NCBI RefSeq assembly: GCF_005943945.1
Contig: NZ_CP040710.1
Span: forward strand, 4,199,501-4,263,500
Length of the DNA stretch: 64,000 nt
Reading direction: 5' to 3'
DNA from: Aggregatimonas sangjinii
GTDB lineage: Bacteria > Bacteroidota > Bacteroidia > Flavobacteriales > Flavobacteriaceae
Within the stretch, counting starts at the first letter, position 1. Each line of letters begins with the position of its first letter. The notes under the pieces are model-generated. The model did not search any database. It had not been told where the DNA came from and saw only the letters and a program-made list of their open reading frames with translations. Positions 543 through 12,619 of this stretch are shown one piece after another. A program made the translations under genes and the position numbers.

Positions 543-2060
543 ATGAAAAGAGAACTCAAGATTTCAATACTATTTGCACTTGCTTTTTTGGCAAGTTTGC
601 TGATCGTATCGTGCAGCAAAGATGACACTGAGCCCCTTATTGAGCCGGAGATAGAGCAGACTGACGAACCAGACTCCTCGGGCGAACCTGTTATCGAGGC
701 GTCTACCTTGCAAAGTGCATTTATAAAGGACACCAATCGTTCGTTAATTCTTTACAATGGAAGCGATGTACAATTTCAGGGTAAAATCGTTGTAAATAGC
801 GATACACTATATTTAGAGACCACCGATACTAATTTAAAACTTGGGAAAGGGTACCCAGGAATACTTGCCAATGATACCATAACCATTTTTAGGACCGAAT
901 TGCCGATTATATCAATCGACACGAAAGGATCTGTTATAGTAGACGAGCCTAAGATTGCAAGTACTTTTCGGCTATTGCAAAACGGCGAAGTCATTCTCGA
1001 AAGCGATTTGGGTATCGAAATTAGGGGTGGTCTTTCACAGACCTTTCCGAAAAAGAGCTTTAGCATAGAGTTATGGGTTGATTCGGAAGAATCCGATACG
1101 GTAGATGCATCTTTACTTGGAATGCGTGACGATGACGATTGGATTTTGGATGGCCTTTGGAATGAACCCTTACATCTTAGAGATTATGTTTCACATGAGT
1201 TATGGCTTCGTATGGGTAGATACCCCTACAGCCAGGAAGAGAACATTACTCTTGGAATAAAACGGGAGTTCTGTGAACTTTTTATCAATAACGAGTATCG
1301 GGGGGTTTATTATCTTTCCGAGAAAATCGATAGAAAACAATTACAGCTTAAAAAATATGATGATAATACCCAGCAAGTACGAGGTGAGCTCTTTAAGGGT
1401 TCGCAATGGGACGACCCCCTTCTTTTTAGGGCTGTAACACCTTTTAGTAATTCAAGTCTGGTATGGGGTGGATATGAGGCCAAATATCCAGATGATATGG
1501 GGGAGTTGGATTGGACCAATCTACATGCCTTTACCGATTTTGTTGTGAACAACGATCAGGCAACATTTGATGCTACCATAGCGGAACGTTTGGATATTGA
1601 CAACATGGTCGATTATTTCATCTTTATGAATGTGACTTTCGCACATGACAATTGGGGTAAAAACGTTTATACCGCCCGATATGACGAAAACTCTCCTTAT
1701 TTTTTCGTGCCATGGGATTTGGATGGGACTTTTGGTAATACCTGGACAGGTGAACGTATCAATATCACTGACCAAATTTTAATCAGAAATGTGCTGTATG
1801 AGAAAATGTTGTTGAATCCCGAATATGTCTCGTCGCTCAAAACGAGATGGAACGACCTAAGGGGCAACGTACTTGCTACCGGCGAAATTCAAGGCATGTT
1901 CGATGATTCATACCAAATTTTACAAGGAAATAAAGTCTACGATCGAGAAGCAATGGTGGAAGGATTTCCATTTAATTACAGCGATCAGGAAATCGATTTT
2001 ATCAAATCGTGGATTTCCAGTAGAATGGCCTTTCTCGATGGCTATTTCGCAAATCTTTAG
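543..2060 (+). CDS. CotH kinase family lipoprotein
   Basis: This is a 505-residue predicted lipoprotein. A hydrophobic signal (residues 6-22) ends in the lipobox LLIVSC and is followed by an acidic linker. The body carries CotH-family hallmarks: CELFINNEYRGVYYLSEKID near residue 250, then DNMVDYFIFMNVT, DNWGKN and FVPWDLDGTFGN between about 352 and 402. CotH of spore formers is an atypical surface protein kinase. Bacteroidota homologues are cell-surface lipoproteins of largely unknown substrate, so kinase activity here is inferred from the family only. The start is supported by the truncated paralogue at 69, which begins with the same residues. It stands alone, about 110 bases before the arsenosugar-type genes, and has no evident link to them. 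Confidence 0.85.
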   Translation: MKRELKISILFALAFLASLLIVSCSKDDTEPLIEPEIEQTDEPDSSGEPVIEASTLQSAFIKDTNRSLILYNGSDVQFQGKIVVNSDTLYLETTDTNLKLGKGYPGILANDTITIFRTELPIISIDTKGSVIVDEPKIASTFRLLQNGEVILESDLGIEIRGGLSQTFPKKSFSIELWVDSEESDTVDASLLGMRDDDDWILDGLWNEPLHLRDYVSHELWLRMGRYPYSQEENITLGIKREFCELFINNEYRGVYYLSEKIDRKQLQLKKYDDNTQQVRGELFKGSQWDDPLLFRAVTPFSNSSLVWGGYEAKYPDDMGELDWTNLHAFTDFVVNNDQATFDATIAERLDIDNMVDYFIFMNVTFAHDNWGKNVYTARYDENSPYFFVPWDLDGTFGNTWTGERINITDQILIRNVLYEKMLLNPEYVSSLKTRWNDLRGNVLATGEIQGMFDDSYQILQGNKVYDREAMVEGFPFNYSDQEIDFIKSWISSRMAFLDGYFANL

Positions 2061-2148
2061 GTTTTTGGCCATCATTTCATAAAATAGGCGCGACGGCAAC
2101 GATTGAAATCATAGCGGATTACTTTATCGGATAGCTAAGAATTCTTCG

Positions 2149-2156
2149 TAAGTTTG
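2149..2156 (+). promoter_or_regulatory. Candidate -7 box (TAnnTTTG) upstream of the DUF2064 gene
   Basis: The octamer taagtttg fits the Bacteroidota -7 consensus TAnnTTTG and lies 17 bases before the ATG at 2173. No good TTG -33 element sits about 19-22 bases upstream; the nearest is ttta at 2123-2126. It would be the likely start of transcription for the arsenosugar-type gene set. The evidence is a single short motif. Confidence 0.35.
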
Positions 2157-2172
2157 TAGGAGCGCTGAAAAC

Positions 2173-2868
2173 ATGAACCAGAACAATACATCAAAGACGG
2201 CCATTTTGGTCTTCGCCAACTCTTCCCGAGAGGAAGTGAAGCATAAGGCTATTGCCAGAGGTGATGTTTTGTTCGACGCATTGACCAACCATACCCTTGA
2301 AACCGTTGAAAAAACACGGCTTCCCTATTTTCATTTTAGCGAAAAACACCAATTCGGCAAAACATTCGGCGAACGCTTTACGAATGCTATTCAAGCGGTG
2401 TACGATAGGGGTTTTGAACGTGTAATTACCATAGGCAACGATTCCCCACAATTAAGACCACAGCACATTACCGAGGCGGAAAGACAGCTTGAAAATAATA
2501 AGTTTGTCATCGGGCCAGCAACCGACGGGGGTTTTTATCTCATGGGATTGCATAAAGATCAGTTCGATGGTAATGCCTTCCGCCAATTGGATTGGCAGAC
2601 CTCGAAACTTTCAAAGCAACTGTTAAGTTTGGTCTCCAATACGATGCATGTGTTTCGACTACCAATGCTGTTCGATATCGATACTGTGGCCGATATCAAA
2701 TCGTTTCTTTCATACGCTTACGCTATTCCTGTTAAAATCTTTCAAATACTTCTTCAAATTTTAGAGGAAGCCGAAAAAACGTCGGCGTGTTACATATTAC
2801 GTGTAGAAAATCTTCACTTCAGATTACCCCACAACAAGGGTTCCCCCCTTCTACTTCAATCCGCTTAA
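2173..2868 (+). CDS. DUF2064 / TIGR04282-type arsenosugar-associated glycosyltransferase
   Basis: The 231-residue protein has the nucleotidyl/glycosyltransferase-like fold of DUF2064. It opens with a KTAILVFANSSREEVKHK strand near the N-terminus, then IGNDSPQLRPQHI at about 86-98 and FVIGPATDGGFYLMGL at about 112-127, with a late DIDTVAD motif. This family (rSAM/selenodomain-associated transferase 1) occurs next to ArsS-type radical SAM genes and is annotated as an arsenosugar biosynthesis glycosyltransferase; the enzyme reaction is not established. ArsS lies 8 kb downstream on the same strand, which supports the assignment. The last 30 or so residues (from TSACYILRVENL) extend past the expected domain and look non-conserved. 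SusC starts 82 bases downstream. Confidence 0.75.
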   Translation: MNQNNTSKTAILVFANSSREEVKHKAIARGDVLFDALTNHTLETVEKTRLPYFHFSEKHQFGKTFGERFTNAIQAVYDRGFERVITIGNDSPQLRPQHITEAERQLENNKFVIGPATDGGFYLMGLHKDQFDGNAFRQLDWQTSKLSKQLLSLVSNTMHVFRLPMLFDIDTVADIKSFLSYAYAIPVKIFQILLQILEEAEKTSACYILRVENLHFRLPHNKGSPLLLQSA

Positions 2869-2950
2869 ATTCCTGCCTACAGCCGAATTCGATCCTTAAG
2901 GAAGAAAATTCAGTGCGGGCCGATTGTTGTAATTCTTTTAAATACCCTTG

Positions 2951-5900
2951 ATGAAATATATTTATTTTGCAATGGCCGTTTGCTTTGCCACAACGGGCTT
3001 TTCACAAACCATTATTAATGGAACGGTAACCGATGAAAATAAGGTACCCATACCTTTTGTCAATATTTTGGCAGTGGATACCGAAACAGGAGCCACCACA
3101 GATGAAAACGGAGACTACTCCATTACCATACCTCTGAATTCGGGGGTATTGCGCTTCTCAATTCTCGGCTATACCCCTGCGGAAGTTCCTTTTGACACTT
3201 CAGGAACCTTGAATGTAACACTGACCGAAGCTTCCGAAGAACTTTCGGAGGTGGTCATCACTGCTTTAGGGGTTCGGCGCGAAACCAAGGAGCTTGGATA
3301 TGTCGTACAAAGCCTTGATTCTGAAAGTATTACTGAAGTAAAATCAATTAACTTTTTGGACAATCTTTCAGGAAAACTGGCCGGGGTAACCATCAACCAA
3401 GGGGCGACCGGCGTTGGTTCTTCCTCAAAAATCACCATTCGTGGGGAGGCCTCGTTCTCGAACAACAATCCACTTTTTGTCGTCGATGGGGTACCAATAA
3501 ACAATAATTCGGTTTTCAACTTTACCAATGAGGCGGCTGCTGGCTTTCAGGAAATTGATTTTGGGAATGGTGCCATGGAAGTAAATCCCGACGATATCGC
3601 AGAAGTTTCTGTCCTTAAAGGCCCGAGTGCCGCGGCGCTATACGGGACACGAGCATCGAACGGGGTTATCGTTATCGAAACTAAAAGTGGGGCCAAGAGC
3701 AAAGGTTTGGGCATTAGTTATAACACTAGCTTCTTTGTGGATTCCGCCTTTCGATTACCGGATTTTCAGAATACTTTCGGACAAGGAAACTCCGGTGAAT
3801 TTGCTTATGTTGATGGTTTGGGCGGCGGTACCAATGATAACATTACGTACAGCTGGGGCCCCCGATTGGATGTGGGCAACCTGATTCCGCAATTCGATAG
3901 CCCCGTTACCTTGCCGGATGGCAGTATTGTACGGGGGGGCGATACGGCTTTATATAACGGGCTGCCCATCACGGCAACGCCCTTTACCTCAAACCCCGAC
4001 AATTTGAAGAATTTTTACCAGACCGGAACGACCTTTATCAATAACATCGCGATTTCATCGGGTTTTGATAAAGGTGATATCCGGCTCTCCTTTACCGACC
4101 TCCGAAGCGAGTCGATCATTCCCGGAGTAAATCTTGATCGGCAGACCGTTAGCGCTAAATTAGGTTTTCGACCGACCGAAAAACTGCGCATCAACAGTAC
4201 GATCAGCTATATAAACTCACAAAGTGACAACCGCCCCTCGAACGGTTACGGCTCCGAAAACGTCAATTACTCTTTGGTAGCATGGGGACCGCGTTCCTTA
4301 AATATCGATAATCTTAGAAATTATTGGCAGCCCGGTCTAGAAGGCACACAACAGTACTCGTTCAATTACACCTTTTTCGACAATCCGTATTTTATACTTT
4401 TCGAAAATAGAAACTCTTTCAATAGAGACCGGGTTTTTGGAAACATATCCGCCAGCTATGATATTACGCAACACCTGACTGCCACCGTGCGCACGGGAAT
4501 GGACTATAGCAGCGAATTGCGGCAATTGCGTCGTGCATTTAGCTCCAACCGATTCAGTAATGGTGGTTATGCCGAGCACGATGTGTTTTTTAGGGAAATA
4601 AATACCGATTTCTTGATCAATTACAGTAATGTCTTCAATGATTTTAAAGTGGACGTCTCATTAGGCGGAAATCGGTTGGACCAAAAAGCATTTACCGGAC
4701 AATCGCAGACCACGTCTCTGGCGCAGCCGGGTATTTTTAGACTATCGAACGCCGCATCGCCGATTGAAGTCTTCGAATTTGAAAGCAACAAACGCATCAA
4801 TAGTTTTTATGGCATTGCCAAATTCGGATATAAAGATTTTCTTTTTGTGGATGTTACCGGCCGGAACGATTGGTCAAGTGTGTTGGCAACTCCCTTTTCG
4901 GTAGACAATACTTCTTTCTTCTATCCTTCGGTGTCCAGTAGTTTTATCCTTTCAAACGTGGTAGACCTTCCTGAGCTCGTCTCCTTCGCGAAACTCCGTG
5001 CCAGCTGGGCACAGGTCGGGAACGATACCAATGCCTACCAAACTACGGGCGCCTTTGTAGCACAAACGCCATTTAATGGTCAACCTACCTTCAGCAACCA
5101 AAATTCCATAGCGAATCCGAATCTAAGGCCGGAGCGTACCTCTTCTTTTGAGGTAGGTGCGGATATTCGTTTTTTCGGAGACCAATTGCGATTCGATATA
5201 TCGTATTATAATGCCCTGACCGAAGATCAGATCATTTCCTTGCCCATTGGAATTTCCTCCGGGTTTACCCAACAGGTAGTGAATGGTGGGAAAGTCCGTT
5301 CGAAAGGCTTGGAAATCATCGCTGGAATTTCGCCCATTATATCCGATAATTTTCGATGGAACAGCACTTTGAATTTTAGTACGAACCGTGCCACGGTCGA
5401 AGACCTCCCGCAAGAAGATGGCCGGTTAACACTGGCGTATTCTAGAATCTATGACAGCCAAAACCAAACGGTTTTTTTACAGGTAGATGAGGGAGGGCGA
5501 GTCGGGGACCTCTATGGCACGGGTTATTTGAAAAATGAGGATGGCGATTTTATCCTCACAGACGAAGGTCGTTACATTCCCGACAACAACCTGCAAAAGC
5601 TAGGCAATTACAATCCTGATTTTATCCTTGGTTTTAACAATCAGTTCAACTATAAAAATTGGAATCTAGGCTTTTTGTTCGATTGGCGACAAGGCGGAAT
5701 CATCGTTTCCAGAACCCGAGCCTTGGGTAATGTTGGCGGACAATTGGCCGAAACGGAAAACCGTCCGGAAGCGGGTATTGTTCCCGAAGGCGTGGTAAAT
5801 GTAGGTACGAACGAAGCTCCAGTATACGAGCCCAACACTGTAGCAGTTTCGGCGGAAAGTTATTATCGGCAGTTTTATGATCGCAACCATGAAGAAAACA

Positions 5901-6154
5901 ATACTTACGACGCCTCTTTCCTAAAACTGCGGCAATTCGCTATCGGCTATACCTTCGATAACTTAAATTTTTTCAATCAAAATACCAGCATAAGCCTATC
6001 CATAATCGGAAGGAACTTGTTTGCTATCACCGAGAACCCACATTTTGACCCGGAGCAACTGGCCGTGCAAGGCCAAGGCTTTATAAGCGGGATCGAAGAT
6101 ATGTCATATGCTACCACCCGAAGTTTCGGATTTAAGGCAGGGTTTAACTTTTAA
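2951..6154 (+). CDS. SusC/RagA-type TonB-dependent outer-membrane receptor
   Basis: This 1067-residue outer-membrane transporter is set to start at the ATG at 2951; the TTG just before it is unnecessary. A signal peptide ending in TTGFSQ is followed by a carboxypeptidase-D-regulatory-like domain (about 20-100), then a plug (about 110-245) with LSGKLAGVTINQGA and the SusC signature FVVDGVPINNN. A 22-strand-type barrel ends in the aromatic GFKAGFNF. Family members import glycans, peptides or other large ligands with a SusD lipoprotein, driven by TonB. The SusD partner starts 11 bases later. Substrate cannot be read from the sequence; the flanking ArsS-linked genes suggest an organoarsenical or a precursor, which is inference. 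Confidence 0.93.
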   Translation: MKYIYFAMAVCFATTGFSQTIINGTVTDENKVPIPFVNILAVDTETGATTDENGDYSITIPLNSGVLRFSILGYTPAEVPFDTSGTLNVTLTEASEELSEVVITALGVRRETKELGYVVQSLDSESITEVKSINFLDNLSGKLAGVTINQGATGVGSSSKITIRGEASFSNNNPLFVVDGVPINNNSVFNFTNEAAAGFQEIDFGNGAMEVNPDDIAEVSVLKGPSAAALYGTRASNGVIVIETKSGAKSKGLGISYNTSFFVDSAFRLPDFQNTFGQGNSGEFAYVDGLGGGTNDNITYSWGPRLDVGNLIPQFDSPVTLPDGSIVRGGDTALYNGLPITATPFTSNPDNLKNFYQTGTTFINNIAISSGFDKGDIRLSFTDLRSESIIPGVNLDRQTVSAKLGFRPTEKLRINSTISYINSQSDNRPSNGYGSENVNYSLVAWGPRSLNIDNLRNYWQPGLEGTQQYSFNYTFFDNPYFILFENRNSFNRDRVFGNISASYDITQHLTATVRTGMDYSSELRQLRRAFSSNRFSNGGYAEHDVFFREINTDFLINYSNVFNDFKVDVSLGGNRLDQKAFTGQSQTTSLAQPGIFRLSNAASPIEVFEFESNKRINSFYGIAKFGYKDFLFVDVTGRNDWSSVLATPFSVDNTSFFYPSVSSSFILSNVVDLPELVSFAKLRASWAQVGNDTNAYQTTGAFVAQTPFNGQPTFSNQNSIANPNLRPERTSSFEVGADIRFFGDQLRFDISYYNALTEDQIISLPIGISSGFTQQVVNGGKVRSKGLEIIAGISPIISDNFRWNSTLNFSTNRATVEDLPQEDGRLTLAYSRIYDSQNQTVFLQVDEGGRVGDLYGTGYLKNEDGDFILTDEGRYIPDNNLQKLGNYNPDFILGFNNQFNYKNWNLGFLFDWRQGGIIVSRTRALGNVGGQLAETENRPEAGIVPEGVVNVGTNEAPVYEPNTVAVSAESYYRQFYDRNHEENNTYDASFLKLRQFAIGYTFDNLNFFNQNTSISLSIIGRNLFAITENPHFDPEQLAVQGQGFISGIEDMSYATTRSFGFKAGFNF

Positions 6155-6164
6155 AATTAGCATA

Positions 6165-7706
6165 ATGAACTTTATATATAAATTAATAATGGTGTTTAGA
6201 GAATGGTTGTCTCCCCAAAGACGGTTTACTTTAAAAAAAGTAGCCCCTTCTGTTGTTCTCGACTACGCTCGAAAAGCCAGCTCGTGCTTATTGCTTGTGT
6301 TTGTGTTTTTCACCTCCTGTACCCAGGACTTTGAGGAAATCAATACCAATCCGAATTCCCCAGTTGCCGTACAGCCCAGTTTGCTATTGCGTCAGGTCGT
6401 CTATGATTATGGGGAGCAAATGTCTTACGAAGGCTTCACGGCAGGCAATCTTTTAGGACAGTACACCACGGCTCTGGATTTTAATCTTTTCGACCGGCAT
6501 AACCTTAAATCGCCCCAATTGGGGGGCAATCCCTGGCCTATTTTGTACACGAATCTTAGAGACAATGAAATTATGTTGAACCTAGCGCTCGAAAACGAAA
6601 CGTTTGCCGTATACGAAGGTCCGTCACGAATCATGAAAGCCTATATGGCCGCTGCATTGACCGATATTTTTGGGGACGTGCCCTATTTCGAGGCATTTCG
6701 AGGGTCTAATGCCACGGTTACTCCCATATACGATAGCCAAGAATCAATATATATGGATGAAGATGGCATTTTAGACAATTTGGATAAAGGTATCGCCGCC
6801 ATTCAAAACTATTCCGGAACTATCGCCCTTGAGGGGGATATTCTCTTTAATGGGGATTTAGATGGATGGTCGCGTTTTGCAAATTCCCTAAAAATCAAAT
6901 ACCTGATACGCATTTCGGATAAGATGGATGTTTCCCAAACCTTGCAGAATGTGGTTTCGGATGGAAATTTCATCAGCGAGAGCAATCAGAATGCAACATT
7001 CGATTTTACCGATGGCGAACCCAACAACTTCCGTTTGGCGCGTTTACGTATCGGCGATTTCAACAACTTCGTGCTGTCGGAGACGATGGATGATATCCTA
7101 ACCGAGCTCAACGACCCGAGAATCGCTACACTTTTCCGCCCTTTTGGGAATAGCATGAGCGGGGATTTCAACGGTCTTCTAAATGGTATCGATGCCTCGC
7201 AGACCTCTATCGCCCTGGCTGACTACTCCTTGGCCGGAACGATTTTTAGGGAAAATACCGGGGCTTTGGATGCCAATTTTATGACGAGCTGGGAAACCCA
7301 TTTCCTCTTGGCGGAAGCCGCCGAAAAGGGCTTGATATCCGGTGATGCACAAGAACTTTACGAGTTGGGTGTGAGCCAGGCCTTCGCCTATTGGAACGTA
7401 TCCTTACCGGAAAACTACCTCAACGCAGAGGGAGCATATGCAGCTCCGGGAACGAGTGCGCTACAGCAAATCATCACCCAAAAGTGGATAGCCAATATGA
7501 TCAACGGTTATGAAGGGTGGATTGAATATAGGAGAACAGGATTTCCGCAGTTACAAACTATTTCGGCAAGTTTAAACGACGATTTGATTCCAGTGCGCAT
7601 GCCGTATCCTGCTGAAGAAGCGGCTTTGAACAATGTAAATTACTCCAAGGCGGCAGAGGCTACCGAAGGGAACAGTATTAACGTACGGGTTTGGTGGGAC
7701 GATTAA
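6165..7706 (+). CDS. SusD/RagB-like outer-membrane lipoprotein (SusD-like_2 type)
   Basis: The protein is 513 residues from the ATG at 6165, which lies 10 bases after the SusC stop. The lipobox cysteine comes late, at about residue 52 (FVFFTSC), followed by TQDFEEINTNPNSP, a typical start of mature SusD-like_2 proteins. A helical substrate-binding body follows, with AYMAAALTDIFGDVPYFEAF and, near the end, GYEGWIEYRRTGFP. It would form the lid over the neighbouring SusC barrel. The n-region before the hydrophobic core is about 40 residues, much longer than usual for a lipoprotein signal. It includes the stretch SVVLDYARKASS encoded by a palindrome-like ctcgactacgctcgaaa motif, possibly a repeat insertion. 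Confidence 0.9.
   Translation: MNFIYKLIMVFREWLSPQRRFTLKKVAPSVVLDYARKASSCLLLVFVFFTSCTQDFEEINTNPNSPVAVQPSLLLRQVVYDYGEQMSYEGFTAGNLLGQYTTALDFNLFDRHNLKSPQLGGNPWPILYTNLRDNEIMLNLALENETFAVYEGPSRIMKAYMAAALTDIFGDVPYFEAFRGSNATVTPIYDSQESIYMDEDGILDNLDKGIAAIQNYSGTIALEGDILFNGDLDGWSRFANSLKIKYLIRISDKMDVSQTLQNVVSDGNFISESNQNATFDFTDGEPNNFRLARLRIGDFNNFVLSETMDDILTELNDPRIATLFRPFGNSMSGDFNGLLNGIDASQTSIALADYSLAGTIFRENTGALDANFMTSWETHFLLAEAAEKGLISGDAQELYELGVSQAFAYWNVSLPENYLNAEGAYAAPGTSALQQIITQKWIANMINGYEGWIEYRRTGFPQLQTISASLNDDLIPVRMPYPAEEAALNNVNYSKAAEATEGNSINVRVWWDD
6250..6281 (+). repeat. Possible REP-like insert in the SusD signal region
   Basis: The stretch around ctcgactacgctcgaaa has short inverted TCGA arms flanked by tt and aa. 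It resembles the ttcgactacgctc palindromic repeats that I recall as scattered through flavobacterial genomes. It is in frame and lengthens the signal-peptide n-region of the SusD-like protein. Only one copy is seen in this window, so repeat status is inferred. Confidence 0.3.
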
Positions 7707-7828
7707 GGAGGCAAGCTAGTTAAGCAGTTGGCCGTGCTGGTTCTATAATCATGGGAGCGCACGGAATTTATAAATATTAGGATAACATAAAATCACATTT
7801 AACAACAGCAATAGTTGAATAATTCGAA

Positions 7829-9208
7829 ATGACAACAATAGGTAACATTCTACTAGCAGACATCTCTCCTCTTGGGGTAAGGGGGATGCAGTGGGCCCTT
7901 GTCATCGCATCGAGTTTGGTGCTGTTTTTCCTATCTCCCTTGGCAAAAAATACCAATCAGTTTTTTAAAGCGGTGCATAAAAAAAAGGTGCCGAATACCT
8001 TCATGTTGATGGGTAGTCTGGTCATCTCTTGGATATTCGCCAAAAGCATCACTAATGCAGCCAATCTAGGATTGGATTATGGCCTGGTGGGCGGAGTGGC
8101 ATATGCGGGCTATTATTTTTCTTTTGCCGTGGCGGGTATCATCATCTATCGAATGCGTATTCAAGGGAATTTTACGAGTATCCATCATTTTCTAACCTTC
8201 AAATTCGGGCAAGGGGCGGTCGCCGTATTTTCCATTCTGATAGCGATACGTTTATTCAACGAGGTTTGGAGCAATACCATGGTCATCGGAACGTATTTTG
8301 GGGATATGGGCACCAGCAGTTATTATTGGTCTATTTTGGTATTTACGACGCTCACCTTGGCCTACGTGCTTAAAGGGGGGATGAGCAGTTCTATTTTTAC
8401 CGACGTCTTACAAATGGGGCTTTTTTCCGTTCTACTCATAGTAATTCTATGGAGTATTTTCAGCCAGGAGACCTCTTTTACCGCCCAAAGGATGTTGGCG
8501 TCCGGTACTTGGTCTTTTGAAATGGGATTGAACCTGTTGTTTGCGGCCGTATTACAATCGTTAAGCTATCCGTTTCATGACCCGGTGATGACCGATAGGG
8601 GGTTCTTGAGCAGTCCTAAGGTAACCTTGCGGAGTTTTTTATTGGCGGGTATCGTCGGGGCTATTTGTATCGTACTCTTTAGTGTCATCGGCATCTACGC
8701 ACAATCACAAAACATGACGGGACAAGCGGCCGTTGAAGTCGGGAAAGCCTTTGGGGTGGTCATTCTCTTGGTCATCAACTTTATCATGATTACCTCCGCC
8801 GCCTCGACCTTGGACTCTACCTTCTCCTCCTTCTCGAAATTGTTGTCGGTTGACCTCAATCTCGGGAATACCCTAAAATTTGGGCGTTGGTCGATGGTTT
8901 TGATTGCCATTTTAGGAACATTGCCCGTTTTTTTGGATGCCGAAATACTTTCTGCAACAACTATTAGCGGCACCATGGTTATCGGTTTGACTCCCGTTTT
9001 TATATTCTGGAAGACCAAAGCGCCCAAAATCAGTTTTCATTTAAGCGTTTTTTGTGGGATTTTATTCGGATTTTTGCTGATTTTCAAATGGTTCCCTCAA
9101 CAGATGATATTCACTACTGGTAAATATGCCGACCTGCTCTGGATTAATTTCTGGGGAATACTAAGTTGTGTAACCCTTTATTTGATACCCAAATGGATAA
9201 AAGGATAA
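7829..9208 (+). CDS. Sodium:solute symporter (SSS family)
   Basis: The 459-residue inner-membrane protein has about 12-13 hydrophobic segments through its whole length. The order and features fit the SSS family: an N-terminal segment, then NKKVPNTF-like loop sequence (HKKKVPNTFMLMGSL), SITNAANLGLDYG, and the central FHDPVMTDRGFLSSPK loop. It would couple sodium entry to import of a small organic solute or ion. It follows the SusC/SusD pair by 122 bases and overlaps the next gene by 16 bases, so it probably provides the inner-membrane step of the same uptake route. Substrate is unknown. Confidence 0.88.
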   Translation: MTTIGNILLADISPLGVRGMQWALVIASSLVLFFLSPLAKNTNQFFKAVHKKKVPNTFMLMGSLVISWIFAKSITNAANLGLDYGLVGGVAYAGYYFSFAVAGIIIYRMRIQGNFTSIHHFLTFKFGQGAVAVFSILIAIRLFNEVWSNTMVIGTYFGDMGTSSYYWSILVFTTLTLAYVLKGGMSSSIFTDVLQMGLFSVLLIVILWSIFSQETSFTAQRMLASGTWSFEMGLNLLFAAVLQSLSYPFHDPVMTDRGFLSSPKVTLRSFLLAGIVGAICIVLFSVIGIYAQSQNMTGQAAVEVGKAFGVVILLVINFIMITSAASTLDSTFSSFSKLLSVDLNLGNTLKFGRWSMVLIAILGTLPVFLDAEILSATTISGTMVIGLTPVFIFWKTKAPKISFHLSVFCGILFGFLLIFKWFPQQMIFTTGKYADLLWINFWGILSCVTLYLIPKWIKG

Positions 9209-10494
9209 CACATATCGGCGCTAAAAATGGCAAACTACTGCTCTTTGGTGGTGTGTACAGCAATCTACAGGCTTTGGAAAAATTGATTTCCATCGCGGAG
9301 ACCGAAGGCATACCGGCGGAAAACTGTATCTGTACCGGAGATATTACCGGTTATTGTGCACAACCAGAGGAAACCGTGCAGTTGTTTAAAAAATGGGGTG
9401 CCCTGGCTATCGCTGGAAATGTAGAGCTTCAGCTTGCGAACGATAGCGAAGATTGCGGTTGTGACTTTAAGGCCGGTGGGCGATGCGACAGCTTTTCAAA
9501 AATGTGGTTTCCGTATACCAAAGGTCATTTGTCCGCAGATTCCCTGCAATGGATTTCTGAAATCCCGCAAAATATTGGTTTCGATTATGCCGGAAACAAA
9601 GTAACTGTCGTTCATGGCACCCTGGCCAATGTGTCGGAATTCGTTTTTGCATCCAATGGAGAACACCACAAACGGCGATGTTTTGAAGAAACGGGAAGTG
9701 ATATCATTATCGCAGGACATTGTGGACTCCCCTTCCATAAATCGGTACAGGACAAACTTTGGCTCAATCCCGGCGTTATTGGAATGCCCGCCAACGACGG
9801 TACCACGCGCGTTTGGTATATGATTTTAGAAAGTAACGGAGATGAAGTAAACGACCTCGGGGCAAGCCCGAGAGGTATTCGAAAAGGAAAAGAACTTAGC
9901 GCATCGAGGCAAGCCTCGGAGCATTCAAATCTCGATTATCGAGTAAATTATACTCATCGGTCTTTTGAATACGATTATAAGACCGCACAACGCTTAATGT
10001 ACCAAAACCATTTGCCGGAAGCGTATGGCGACACCCTTTCCTCCGGTATTTGGGACAATATGGAAATCCTTCCCGAAATCGAAAAGATGGGGCAGGGCAT
10101 CCCGATATATTTTGATACCGACGAAAAAGAGAAAGTAGCACCTAAAAAACAGAAAAAAATGGCAGATACTTATTATGACCCTAAGGATTTGAGAAAATTT
10201 GGAAAAATAACGGAATGGAGCGAAGAGCTTGGTACTAAATTTTTCGACTACTACGGTTCCGTTTTCGAGGAAGGCGCTTTAAGTGCAAGGGAGAAGTCCC
10301 TGATTGCATTGGCCGTCTCCCACGTAGTTAAATGTCCCTATTGCATAGATGCCTATACAAAAGACGGCTTGCAAAAAGGCATTACCAAAGAAGAAATGAT
10401 GGAAGCAGTGCACGTAGGGGCTGCCATTGAAAGCGGTGCCACCCTGGTGCACGGCGTACAGATGATGAACAAGTATAATAAACTCTCTATGTAA
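9193..10494 (+). CDS. Metallophosphoesterase-like / AhpD-like fusion protein, arsenosugar-associated
   Basis: The protein is 433 residues from the ATG at 9193, inside the end of the symporter gene. Residues 1-225 resemble a calcineurin-type phosphoesterase, but the metal motifs are altered: LFGGVYSNLQAL replaces the usual D-x-H, GNVE replaces GNHE/D, and GHCGLPF replaces GHTH, while TGDITGY and VVHG remain. Residues from about 323 (MADTYYDPKDLRKFG) form an AhpD/carboxymuconolactone-decarboxylase-like domain with KCPYCIDAY; the CxxC pair is present but the usual histidine is tyrosine. This domain matches the arsenosugar-biosynthesis-associated peroxidase-like family, normally encoded near ArsS. 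The linker between domains contains a low-conservation insert of hairpin-rich DNA (9856-9947). Function is not established. Confidence 0.8.
   Translation: MDKRITHIGAKNGKLLLFGGVYSNLQALEKLISIAETEGIPAENCICTGDITGYCAQPEETVQLFKKWGALAIAGNVELQLANDSEDCGCDFKAGGRCDSFSKMWFPYTKGHLSADSLQWISEIPQNIGFDYAGNKVTVVHGTLANVSEFVFASNGEHHKRRCFEETGSDIIIAGHCGLPFHKSVQDKLWLNPGVIGMPANDGTTRVWYMILESNGDEVNDLGASPRGIRKGKELSASRQASEHSNLDYRVNYTHRSFEYDYKTAQRLMYQNHLPEAYGDTLSSGIWDNMEILPEIEKMGQGIPIYFDTDEKEKVAPKKQKKMADTYYDPKDLRKFGKITEWSEELGTKFFDYYGSVFEEGALSAREKSLIALAVSHVVKCPYCIDAYTKDGLQKGITKEEMMEAVHVGAAIESGATLVHGVQMMNKYNKLSM
9856..9947 (+). repeat. Hairpin-rich REP-like element inserted in frame in the fusion gene
   Basis: Three palindromes lie in 90 bases: ctcggg-gcaag-cccgag (9856-9872), cgaggc-aa-gcctcg (9905-9918) and ctcgat-t-atcgag (9931-9943). 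The first two share caag-containing loops. The last 20 bases recur with one mismatch at 59414-59433. The encoded peptide (about DLGASPRGIRKGKELSASRQ and on) is basic and low in complexity, lying between two conserved domains. This pattern is typical of a palindromic element that was inserted in frame; family membership was not checked. Confidence 0.5.
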
Positions 10495-10671
10495 CGAGCA
10501 GTAAGTAGTAGCAGTTGGCAGCGTCTAAATTGACTAAATGCTAATCGCTGGATATTTAAAACTAAAACGAATTTACAACGTAGGTAACTTGTAGACAATT
10601 GACATGTGCAGTTAACAATAGCGATATTTGCTCAAACTGCCCACTACAATGGCCTACTGAAAATTGAACAA

Positions 10672-11727
10672 ATGGCGACGAAATCATTAAAAGCGAAAGG
10701 CGACGAACTAGCGGTAAGCAATAAGCAGCTCGAAATTCTCAATGGAGGCATCTTTGCTGAAGGCGAACTCCCTTACTTTAAGGATAAAATAAATGAAATC
10801 GGACACTTTCCGTTGCGGCCCGCAAAATTGGAAATCCTACAGATTAATGTAGGCTATATGTGCAACCAGGTCTGCGAGCATTGCCATGTCGATGCTGGCC
10901 CCGACCGAAAGGAAATCATGACGCGGGAAACGATGTACCAATGCTTGGACGTTATTCGTAATACCGGGGCGCATACCCTGGATCTTACTGGTGGCGCGCC
11001 AGAGATGAACCCCGATTTTCGGTGGTTTGTGGAAGAGGCCGCGAAGGCTGGTATCAAAGATTTTATCGTACGGTCGAATCTGACCATCATTCGGGCGAAC
11101 AAAAAATACTACGATCTACCGGAGTTTTTTAAGAAGCACAATGTGCATGTTATTTCCTCCATGCCGCATTACACCCGTGGCAAGACCGATAAGCAACGCG
11201 GGGACGGTGTTTTCGACAAATCGATAAAAGCACTACAGGAATTGAATGCCGTTGGTTATGGTCTGCCAGGTAGCGGCCTGCGTTTGGATTTGGTCTACAA
11301 CCCATCAGGTGCCTACCTTCCCGGGGACCAAATGGCCCTGGAGGCGGACTTTAAAAAAGCGTTGAAGGAGGATTTCGATATCGTCTTCCACAATCTGTTC
11401 GCCATTACCAACCTGCCCATCGCGCGTTTTCTGGATTATTTGATCGCTTCTGAAAATTATGAGGATTATATGTATGCACTAGTTGAAGCCTACAACCCGG
11501 CCGCGGTCGAAAACGTAATGTGTACCAATACCATTTCCATCAGTTGGGATGGCTGGTTATACGACTGTGATTTTAACCAGATGTTGGATTTAAAAGTTGC
11601 CAGTAAGGTAAAGCACATCAAAGATTACAATGAGGATATTTTGAATGACCGCAATATCATCATCTCACAACATTGTTATGGCTGTACCGCAGGAGCGGGA
11701 AGTAGTTGTCAGGGGACGGTGGCATAA
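10672..11727 (+). CDS. arsS: Arsenosugar biosynthesis radical SAM protein ArsS
   Basis: The protein is 351 residues from the ATG at 10672 (MATKSLKAKG); a GTG at 10606 would add 22 unconserved residues. The radical SAM cluster motif is CNQVCEHCH with cysteines 64, 68 and 71, followed by VDAGPDRKEIM and the SAM-binding LDLTGGAPEMNP. The C-terminal DUF3641 domain holds LYDCDFNQMLDL and CYGCTAGAGSSCQG, where some relatives carry selenocysteine; here all positions are cysteine codons. ArsS of cyanobacteria transfers the 5'-deoxyadenosyl group of SAM to dimethylated arsenic, giving the arsenosugar skeleton. The ArsM methyltransferase that supplies the substrate is not in this window. It follows the fusion gene by 177 bases. 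Confidence 0.9.
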   Translation: MATKSLKAKGDELAVSNKQLEILNGGIFAEGELPYFKDKINEIGHFPLRPAKLEILQINVGYMCNQVCEHCHVDAGPDRKEIMTRETMYQCLDVIRNTGAHTLDLTGGAPEMNPDFRWFVEEAAKAGIKDFIVRSNLTIIRANKKYYDLPEFFKKHNVHVISSMPHYTRGKTDKQRGDGVFDKSIKALQELNAVGYGLPGSGLRLDLVYNPSGAYLPGDQMALEADFKKALKEDFDIVFHNLFAITNLPIARFLDYLIASENYEDYMYALVEAYNPAAVENVMCTNTISISWDGWLYDCDFNQMLDLKVASKVKHIKDYNEDILNDRNIIISQHCYGCTAGAGSSCQGTVA

Positions 11728-11728
11728 G

Positions 11729-11755
11729 GCCCCCTAGCCCCCAAAGGGGAAACTT
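11729..11755 (+). repeat. CCCC/GGGG inverted repeat after arsS
   Basis: Directly after the arsS stop lies ggccccctagcccccaaaggggaaact, with C-rich and G-rich arms that can pair as CCCC-caaa-GGGG. Similar ccctagcccc(c)aaagggg stretches are familiar between flavobacterial genes. It could act as a weak terminator or mRNA 3' stabiliser. No T-run follows closely. Confidence 0.35.
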
Positions 11756-11956
11756 TTGATATTCCCTTAAAAAGAATAGCCATTAGGTTTCAGTACCATG
11801 CCCCCAAACCGGAGCCTATACTACAAACCACTCGGTTCGTTTTTATGGTTTGAACGAAATTTCAGTCATTTGATTTCGCTACGCTATATCGTTAATTCAC
11901 AACAAAACATCGCGCTCCATATACTAAAACAAAAGTTTTCGGGTTTGTAGTAGTTC

Positions 11957-11975
11957 CCGACTTCTTAGTCGGTTT
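11957..11975 (+). terminator. Weak hairpin between arsS and the TetR gene
   Basis: The stem ccgact/agtcgg with a tctt loop is followed by only three T residues. It lies 230 bases after arsS and about 20 bases before the TetR start. It could end read-through from arsS or sit in the TetR leader. The T-run is short. Confidence 0.3.
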
Positions 11976-11992
11976 CGCATCTAACCAAACCT

Positions 11993-12619
11993 ATGTTATC
12001 GATGGAAAAAAGTATAAAACGTATGGCAACGATGAATAGAATGCAGGTTACCGGACTGGAACTATTCTACAAAAAGGGCTATTATAATACTAGCGTTGAT
12101 GATATCCTGAAAGAACTTTCGCTCTCCAAAGGAGCCTTTTATTATCACTTCGATTCGAAGGAGGATTTCTTTATCCAGATTATCGAAAATCTTGTCGTCC
12201 GAAAAGTTTATACCATGCTCATTGAGCCGATAGAAGGGCACGAACATACTTTGGATTTGATAAGCAGTTGTTTTGAAAATGCCTTGGAAACCGCCGTACA
12301 CAACGAACTTGATTTTGGGTTTGTACTCAATAATTTCGTAAACGAATTCAATGGCCGAAACGAGCATATTATGAAGCACTTGAACGAAGTGCTCAAAGTT
12401 TGGGAAGTTACTTTGGTTTCCGCGGTGCAAAGGGGTAAGTTCAATGGGCATATCGACCGTCATGTAGATGCCGAAGGTGTGGCCATTTACTTGATGAGCG
12501 CTTTTCTAGGTATTCGTACACTTATGGTCGAAACCGCGCCTAGTGCCCGAAAGTACCGTTTTATGTCTCAATTGCGCTATTATTTTAAAACCTTGGAACC
12601 TAGAACCACCTCGGTCTAA
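11993..12619 (+). CDS. TetR/AcrR family transcriptional regulator
   Basis: The 208-residue protein has an N-terminal TetR helix-turn-helix (about 15-62) reading GLELFYKKGYYNTSVDDILK then LSLSKGAFYYHFDSKEDFF, and a helical ligand-binding C-terminal domain. A second ATG at 12002 (MEKSIKRM) is an equally plausible start. Regulators of this family usually repress adjacent genes and release DNA on binding a small ligand. It lies 265 bases after arsS on the same strand and is the only regulator next to the arsenosugar-type genes, so control of that locus is a reasonable inference. Its stop is 4 bases from the stop of the convergent GT9 gene, leaving no room for a terminator. Confidence 0.9.
   Translation: MLSMEKSIKRMATMNRMQVTGLELFYKKGYYNTSVDDILKELSLSKGAFYYHFDSKEDFFIQIIENLVVRKVYTMLIEPIEGHEHTLDLISSCFENALETAVHNELDFGFVLNNFVNEFNGRNEHIMKHLNEVLKVWEVTLVSAVQRGKFNGHIDRHVDAEGVAIYLMSAFLGIRTLMVETAPSARKYRFMSQLRYYFKTLEPRTTSV

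Follow-up and report, generated by a model that had tools for sequence, protein, structure and literature searches.

Why should an outer-membrane importer and a symporter lie inside a set of arsenosugar genes? The question is raised by a stretch of 64,000 nucleotides from Aggregatimonas sangjinii (G000:C1:4199501-4263500, hereafter the window), whose genome is a single contig of 4.72 Mb. On the + strand, positions 2173-12619 encode, in this order, a divergent DUF2064 protein (DUF2064v), SusC, SusD, a symporter of the sodium:solute symporter (SSS) type, a fusion of a metallophosphoesterase-like domain (MPE) with an AhpD-like domain, ArsS and a TetR regulator. This order of seven genes on one strand, proposed in an earlier note on the same DNA, was confirmed by re-reading the frames and by profile scores. 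The run SusC-SusD-SSS-MPE is called the block. According to the comparisons described below, we consider, with a probability of roughly 0.6, that the block would be an importer of an already methylated organic arsenical and would feed ArsS.

ArsM reportedly supplies the dimethylarsenic of the known pathway, and ArsS is said to act in arsenosugar biosynthesis, as the titles of Xue 2017 and 2019 and of Cheng 2021 have it. The window genome resembles this system in having ArsS, the TIGR04169 AhpD-like protein, PNP, canonical DUF2064 and GT2 homologues. It differs in that no ArsM is detectable and that a two-membrane import block adjoins ArsS.

In order to see how far the block is conserved, an alignment of four symporters was compared with named prokaryote genomes, and 336 relatives were obtained; the locus counts refer to the best 80 of the 336. 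MPE is present in all 80 loci, after the symporter, and SusC and SusD are located ahead of the symporter in 78. ArsS is found in 78 of the 80 and DUF2064 upstream of the block in 75. The TetR regulator is present in 32 loci, and also beside the block-less ArsS locus L231. The MPE and AhpD-like proteins are fused in 29 loci and encoded by separate genes in some others; the fusion is a hint that the two proteins may work jointly. In L080 and L089, the contig starts at the symporter, and SusC/SusD are not visible. The locus L123 starts ahead of SusC, and L122 has no DUF2064 in front of SusC. L108, a contig of 6.4 kb, is without ArsS and without the upstream DUF2064. L133 (Flagellimonas beolgyonensis; 11305-12153) shows the run DUF2064-SusC-SusD-SSS-MPE without ArsS in a locus of 21 kb. 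The genomes of L133 and L108 carry ArsS elsewhere.

The linkage was also counted in an even sampling of the family (397 genomes), using matches to the window MPE at E 1e-20. Matches were detected in 51 genomes, and 50 of them, across 37 genera, were counted as block-bearing; G108 was excluded because its sole match is a 32% paralogue. ArsS is present in all 50 block-bearing genomes (51 of 51 if G108 is included), versus 288 of the 397 overall. The distance between MPE and ArsS is less than 10 kb in 49 of the 50, and the exception is G087, where they are 180 kb apart. Outside the family, MPEs of 47-54% identity were found in five genomes of a phylum sample (n = 395). All five have ArsS, which lies inside the examined stretch in L207 and L210 and not in L206, L208 and L209. 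The gene arrangement is beyond chance, since the synteny counts (78/80 loci, 50/50 genomes, 49/50 within 10 kb) rule out a chance neighbourhood. The earlier note had made its idea depend on the conservation of SusC/SusD/SSS with arsS in relatives, and this conservation was found. Comparative genomics gives good support to the coupling that it had proposed, of arsenosugar genes with uptake through both membranes.

An importer of methylated arsenic should make ArsM unnecessary to its carriers. This prediction was tested with the models NF038099 (arsenosugar-type ArsM, cut-off 400) and NF008823 (classical ArsM, cut-off 263). Arsenosugar-type ArsM is missing from the window genome, where NF038099 reaches 22 bits at best, and the search for classical ArsM at E 1e-15 gave no match. 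Retained, and clustered at about C1:166.5-169.4 kb, are homologues of rhodanese, canonical DUF2064, PNP and GT2; the single TIGR04167 match of this genome above the cut-off is the window ArsS. NF038099 ArsM is present in 226 of the 397 family genomes. It is missing from 63 ArsS genomes; of these, 18 of the 33 block-less ones have classical ArsM above the cut-off, versus 1 of the 30 block-bearing ones. In that one genome, G121, a stop is located inside the classical ArsM match (C1:464811-465596), and the gene looks as if it were decaying beside the block. Block-bearing G153 and G348 have weak classical matches only (71 and 66 bits).

When intact ArsM was counted over the 288 ArsS genomes, 20 block-bearing genomes were with and 30 without it, and 223 block-less genomes were with and 15 without it (Fisher p 1e-16). 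With G121 recounted as ArsM-bearing, the block-bearing counts are 21 and 29 (p 8e-16). Using one genome per genus, the counts with and without ArsM are 16 and 16 for the block, versus 137 and 8 for the block-less genomes (p 9e-9). In 13 mixed genera, a bearer without ArsM and a block-less genome with ArsM were found in seven (g1, g45, g54, g93, g97, g172 and g176), the reverse in none, and both with ArsM in six; the two-sided sign test over the seven contrasting genera gives p 0.016. The contrast between uptake and methylation in the cell, drawn in the earlier note, was thus examined through ArsM, and the block tracks its absence. That the block occurs more often without ArsM than with it suggests import of ready-made organic arsenic, and the association makes a methylated arsenical a better candidate than a sugar co-substrate.

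Trees of ArsS point in the same direction. For their block-less rows, genomes whose coordinates were known were picked manually, and these rows are not a random sample. From a first tree (122 rows), 7 pairs were obtained, with a mean of 4.4 opposite and 0.0 same (median p 0.125). In a tree of 147 rows, with five long-branch ArsS rows (G185, G300, G389, G098 and G143) set aside before counting, the well-supported branches gave 9 independent pairs, with a mean of 5.3 opposite, 0.1 same and 3.5 tied (median p 0.06). Greedy pairing, a procedure of our own, was performed over all branches of this tree, most of which are not strongly supported, and the commonest outcome was 0 same and 10-12 opposite. 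Of 200 such pairings, 187 are covered by the eight commonest results: 168 with 0 same and 9-13 opposite, and 19 with 1 same and 9-12 opposite. The presence of the block changes at least 22 times on the ArsS tree. The direction of the trees is consistent with an opposition between block and ArsM.

The block loci (ARRANGEMENTS) include a Maribacter type, in which the block lies between DUF2064v and AhpD-ArsS. In the Winogradskyella type, the order is AhpD-ArsS-DUF2064v-block, usually followed by rhodanese, canonical DUF2064, PNP and further genes. In L145, a locus of this type, the downstream genes include ArsM (NF038099, 569 bits) and a TIGR04283 glycosyltransferase (229 bits). These differing arrangements all preserve the linkage of block and ArsS. 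Among the 71 loci of at least 21 kb, ArsM is present in 20 and ArsS in 70. Forty ArsS neighbourhoods, picked by hand among the best-scoring ArsS matches and therefore not random, contained the whole block in 2 cases and SSS-MPE in 1. The congener G396 (L231) shows an empty site, DUF2064v-AhpD-ArsS-TetR with nothing in between; there, the AhpD-like protein is a separate one, and a block MPE is absent. This block-less congener has ArsM.

The MPE domain (9193-10110, + strand; PF12850, 39 bits) was modelled with AlphaFold from a 45-row alignment (pLDDT 83.6, pTM 0.84). According to Foldseek, the model is closest to SapH (Spr1479, 3qfm; TMt 0.82), followed by 3rqz (0.74-0.76), 1nnw and 2gju. The two-metal motifs of metallophosphoesterases are DxH, GD, GN, HG and GHxH. 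In 81 block MPEs, for whose extraction a GGxYSN motif was required and passed by every locus, DxH and GHxH are found in 0/81, whereas GD and HG, and also N75 and H175, are found in 81/81. Eleven canonical relatives (about 23-27% identity) retain SDxH, GNYD and GHTH; in the block MPE, SDxH is changed to GGxY, GNYD to GNVE and GHTH mostly to GHCG. By these changes, most ligands of one metal are presumably gone and those of the other kept. The phosphoesterase of the earlier note therefore holds as a SapH-like metallophosphoesterase fold and fails as an ordinary enzyme of that class.

Five cysteines, C44, C54, C87, C89 and C97, are shared by all 81 MPEs, and C176 is present in 76 and C46 in 68. 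The 11 canonical relatives, which share the CGC motif, also match C46, C87 and C89, so that only C54 and C97 are specific to the block MPE (11 of 11 block MPEs versus 0 of 11 relatives); C176 is so in 8 of 11. The idea that all seven cysteines are special arsenic binders was dropped for this reason, and arsenic binding by the block MPE is a guess. The window MPE has an in-frame insert of about 32 residues (9850-9945), which is a gap column in the other 80 MPEs. A mobile palindromic element was considered as its source and dropped, as one 7-base inverted repeat and single copies in the window were found.

The eight proteins encoded at 543-12619 were scored against the Pfam and NCBIfam profiles. 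The SusC-type TonB-dependent outer-membrane transporter (2951-6154, + strand) scores 581 bits with TIGR04056 (cut-off 368), and has Pfam plug and barrel domains and a CarboxypepD_reg-like N-terminal domain. The adjoining SusD-type surface-binding lipoprotein (6165-7706, + strand) scores 300 bits with PF12771 (cut-off 27), and a lipoprotein-like FFTSC was seen by eye in its translation. The SusC/SusD pair of the earlier note is thus as labelled. The window SusD has about 42 additional N-terminal residues (6165-6290) ahead of the stretch aligning with relatives, and the true start may be further in. The pair is like other SusC/SusD uptake systems of Bacteroidota in its plug, barrel and adjoining SusD, and unlike them in its linkage to ArsS and an SSS symporter. 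With Pfam and NCBIfam, the eight proteins yielded no glycan-degrading enzyme, no glycosidase and nothing else of a degradative kind, and the locus is not classed as a polysaccharide utilization locus. The nearest solved chain to SusC is BT_2264 (5fq6_B), and the structure matches of SusD are headed by 5j5u and include BT_2263. We take BT_2264 to be a peptide-type transporter and the BT_2263/2264 pair to be peptide-binding, which leaves room for a cargo other than a glycan.

The divergent SSS-type symporter of the inner membrane (7886-9208, + strand) has no Pfam match in the window, and PF00474 matches 21 of the 30 members of the symporter alignment (E 0.01). A profile of the alignment found SLC5A7 only in the PDB (E 9e-7). 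The structure model is of modest confidence (pLDDT 68), and its best Foldseek matches are DUR3, SGLT2, CHT1 and NIS, which indicates a LeuT-type SSS fold. The protein is like the SLC5-like sodium:solute symporters in fold and weak profile matches, whereas its subfamily is divergent, with 28.8 bits for TIGR00813 against a cut-off of 184. The label of SSS symporter is refined to that of a divergent SSS. The symporter gene and the MPE-AhpD gene share 16 overlapping bases. Likely ATG starts are located at 2951 (SusC), 6165 (SusD), 7886 (SSS), 9193 (MPE-AhpD) and 10672 (ArsS).

The other genes of the locus were also examined. The AhpD-like domain fused to MPE (10165-10494, + strand) scores 196 bits with TIGR04169 (cut-off 120), and ArsS, the radical SAM enzyme of arsenosugar biosynthesis (10672-11727, + strand), scores 437 bits with TIGR04167 (cut-off 300), in agreement with the earlier labels. 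The TetR-family regulator (11993-12619, + strand) scores 53 bits with PF00440 (TetR_N). DUF2064v (2173-2868, + strand) had been regarded as an ordinary TIGR04282 transferase. This label was not upheld: the protein scores 78 bits with PF09837 and 101 bits with TIGR04282, under the cut-off of 134, and aligns to TIGR04282 positions 68-189 only. The canonical DUF2064 of this genome has an N-terminal loop, the TRNPELGKCKTRLA segment, that DUF2064v lacks, and the missing loop makes a label of nucleotidyl- or glycosyltransferase doubtful. This loop-less second kind of DUF2064 (2173-2868 in the window; 4447-5145 in L145) is a frequent neighbour of ArsS, with the block or without it. Further upstream, a short open frame at 69-146 is like the leader of the CotH-family lipoprotein gene at 543-2060, and by eye it has the look of a duplicate remnant.

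In the route that we propose, the cargo would be a dimethylarsenical, or a larger algal organoarsenical yielding one. It would pass inwards through the outer membrane via SusD and SusC, and through the inner membrane via the SSS symporter. The MPE-fold protein, here fused to its AhpD-like partner, may bind or process the arsenical, and ArsS would put its 5'-deoxyadenosyl group on it. Radical SAM adenosylation of arsenic is treated in a review, and a dimethylarsenical would be the substrate of ArsS. The arsenosugar would be finished by homologues of PNP, canonical DUF2064 and a glycosyltransferase that are encoded elsewhere. In the majority of the sampled carriers, though not in every one (30/50), imported methylated arsenic would replace ArsM.

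Several findings weigh against this route. The sequence of the transport parts names no cargo, and small anions such as dimethylarsinate would hardly require SusC/SusD. The block is apart from ArsS in G087, L206 and L133, and L054, L215 and L216 keep SSS-MPE yet have no SusC/SusD. Since ArsM is retained in 20 of the 50 block-bearing genomes, the block is not simply a replacement of ArsM. In addition, 15 of the 238 block-less ArsS genomes have neither ArsM nor block; six of these are less than 90% complete and nine at least 95%. The paired test on supported branches is low-powered, and the strictest tree test alone misses 0.05. The nine genomes of at least 95% completeness without detected ArsM or block are G046, G063, G098, G216, G257, G268, G308, G311 and G376; six of them were viewed, for other transporters beside arsS, as gene-order strings against a fixed query set, and a transporter outside this set may be present.

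Could the block serve salvage instead? It would then take up finished algal arsenosugars, or fragments of arsenosugar lipids, for breakdown, detoxification or remodelling, and ArsS would not simply be fed by the block. ArsM would be dispensable under salvage too, SusC/SusD systems usually carry larger molecules, and a phosphodiesterase-like fold is present within the block. However, the eight scanned proteins include no degradative enzyme, motif residues retained by canonical relatives are gone from the MPE, and the window genome keeps genes of the synthesis type. We regard salvage as unlikely. The block may also import a different co-substrate for the pathway, for example a nucleoside, a sugar or something like a peptide. 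BT_2264, as the solved chain nearest to SusC, would suit such a cargo, and the SSS relatives transport sugars, choline, urea or iodide according to their structure titles. The link between the block and ArsM absence is left unexplained by a co-substrate, and we judge it quite improbable.

An ordinary nutrient SusC/SusD locus, placed beside arsS by accident and retained by descent, is the remaining explanation. All 80 kept loci bear Flavobacteriaceae-type names or titles of metagenome-assembled genomes, and the loci are thus not independent. Descent fits poorly with the linkage in 49 of 50 sampled genomes, the varied arrangements, the presence that differs inside 13 genera, and the repeated changes on the ArsS tree. 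We consider this explanation very improbable. Import of a methylated arsenical for ArsS, on the other hand, can be extended to a bolder picture, which we hold tentatively and at less than even odds. Some flavobacteria may have abandoned arsenic methylation and may harvest organic arsenic that algae release, with a dedicated TonB-dependent importer spanning both membranes. The MPE may have turned into a cysteine-bearing arsenic handler that passes the arsenical to ArsS, and arsenosugars may be wanted products, not just waste of inorganic arsenic detoxification.

No description of the combination of SusC/SusD/SSS with arsenosugar genes was found among the open-licence papers listed, in line with the earlier note, which knew of none. 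A 2025 review, mainly on human and animal cells, states that the ways in which arsenobetaine, arsenosugars and arsenolipids are taken up are largely unknown (PMC12608789). The block is a concrete candidate for organoarsenical uptake in bacteria. If arsenosugars serve solely for detoxification of inorganic arsenic, ArsS would be of little use to a cell that lacks ArsM, and the import of organic arsenic of still less. The block makes the purpose of arsenosugar synthesis testable in genera with named strains, among them Maribacter, Polaribacter and Winogradskyella.

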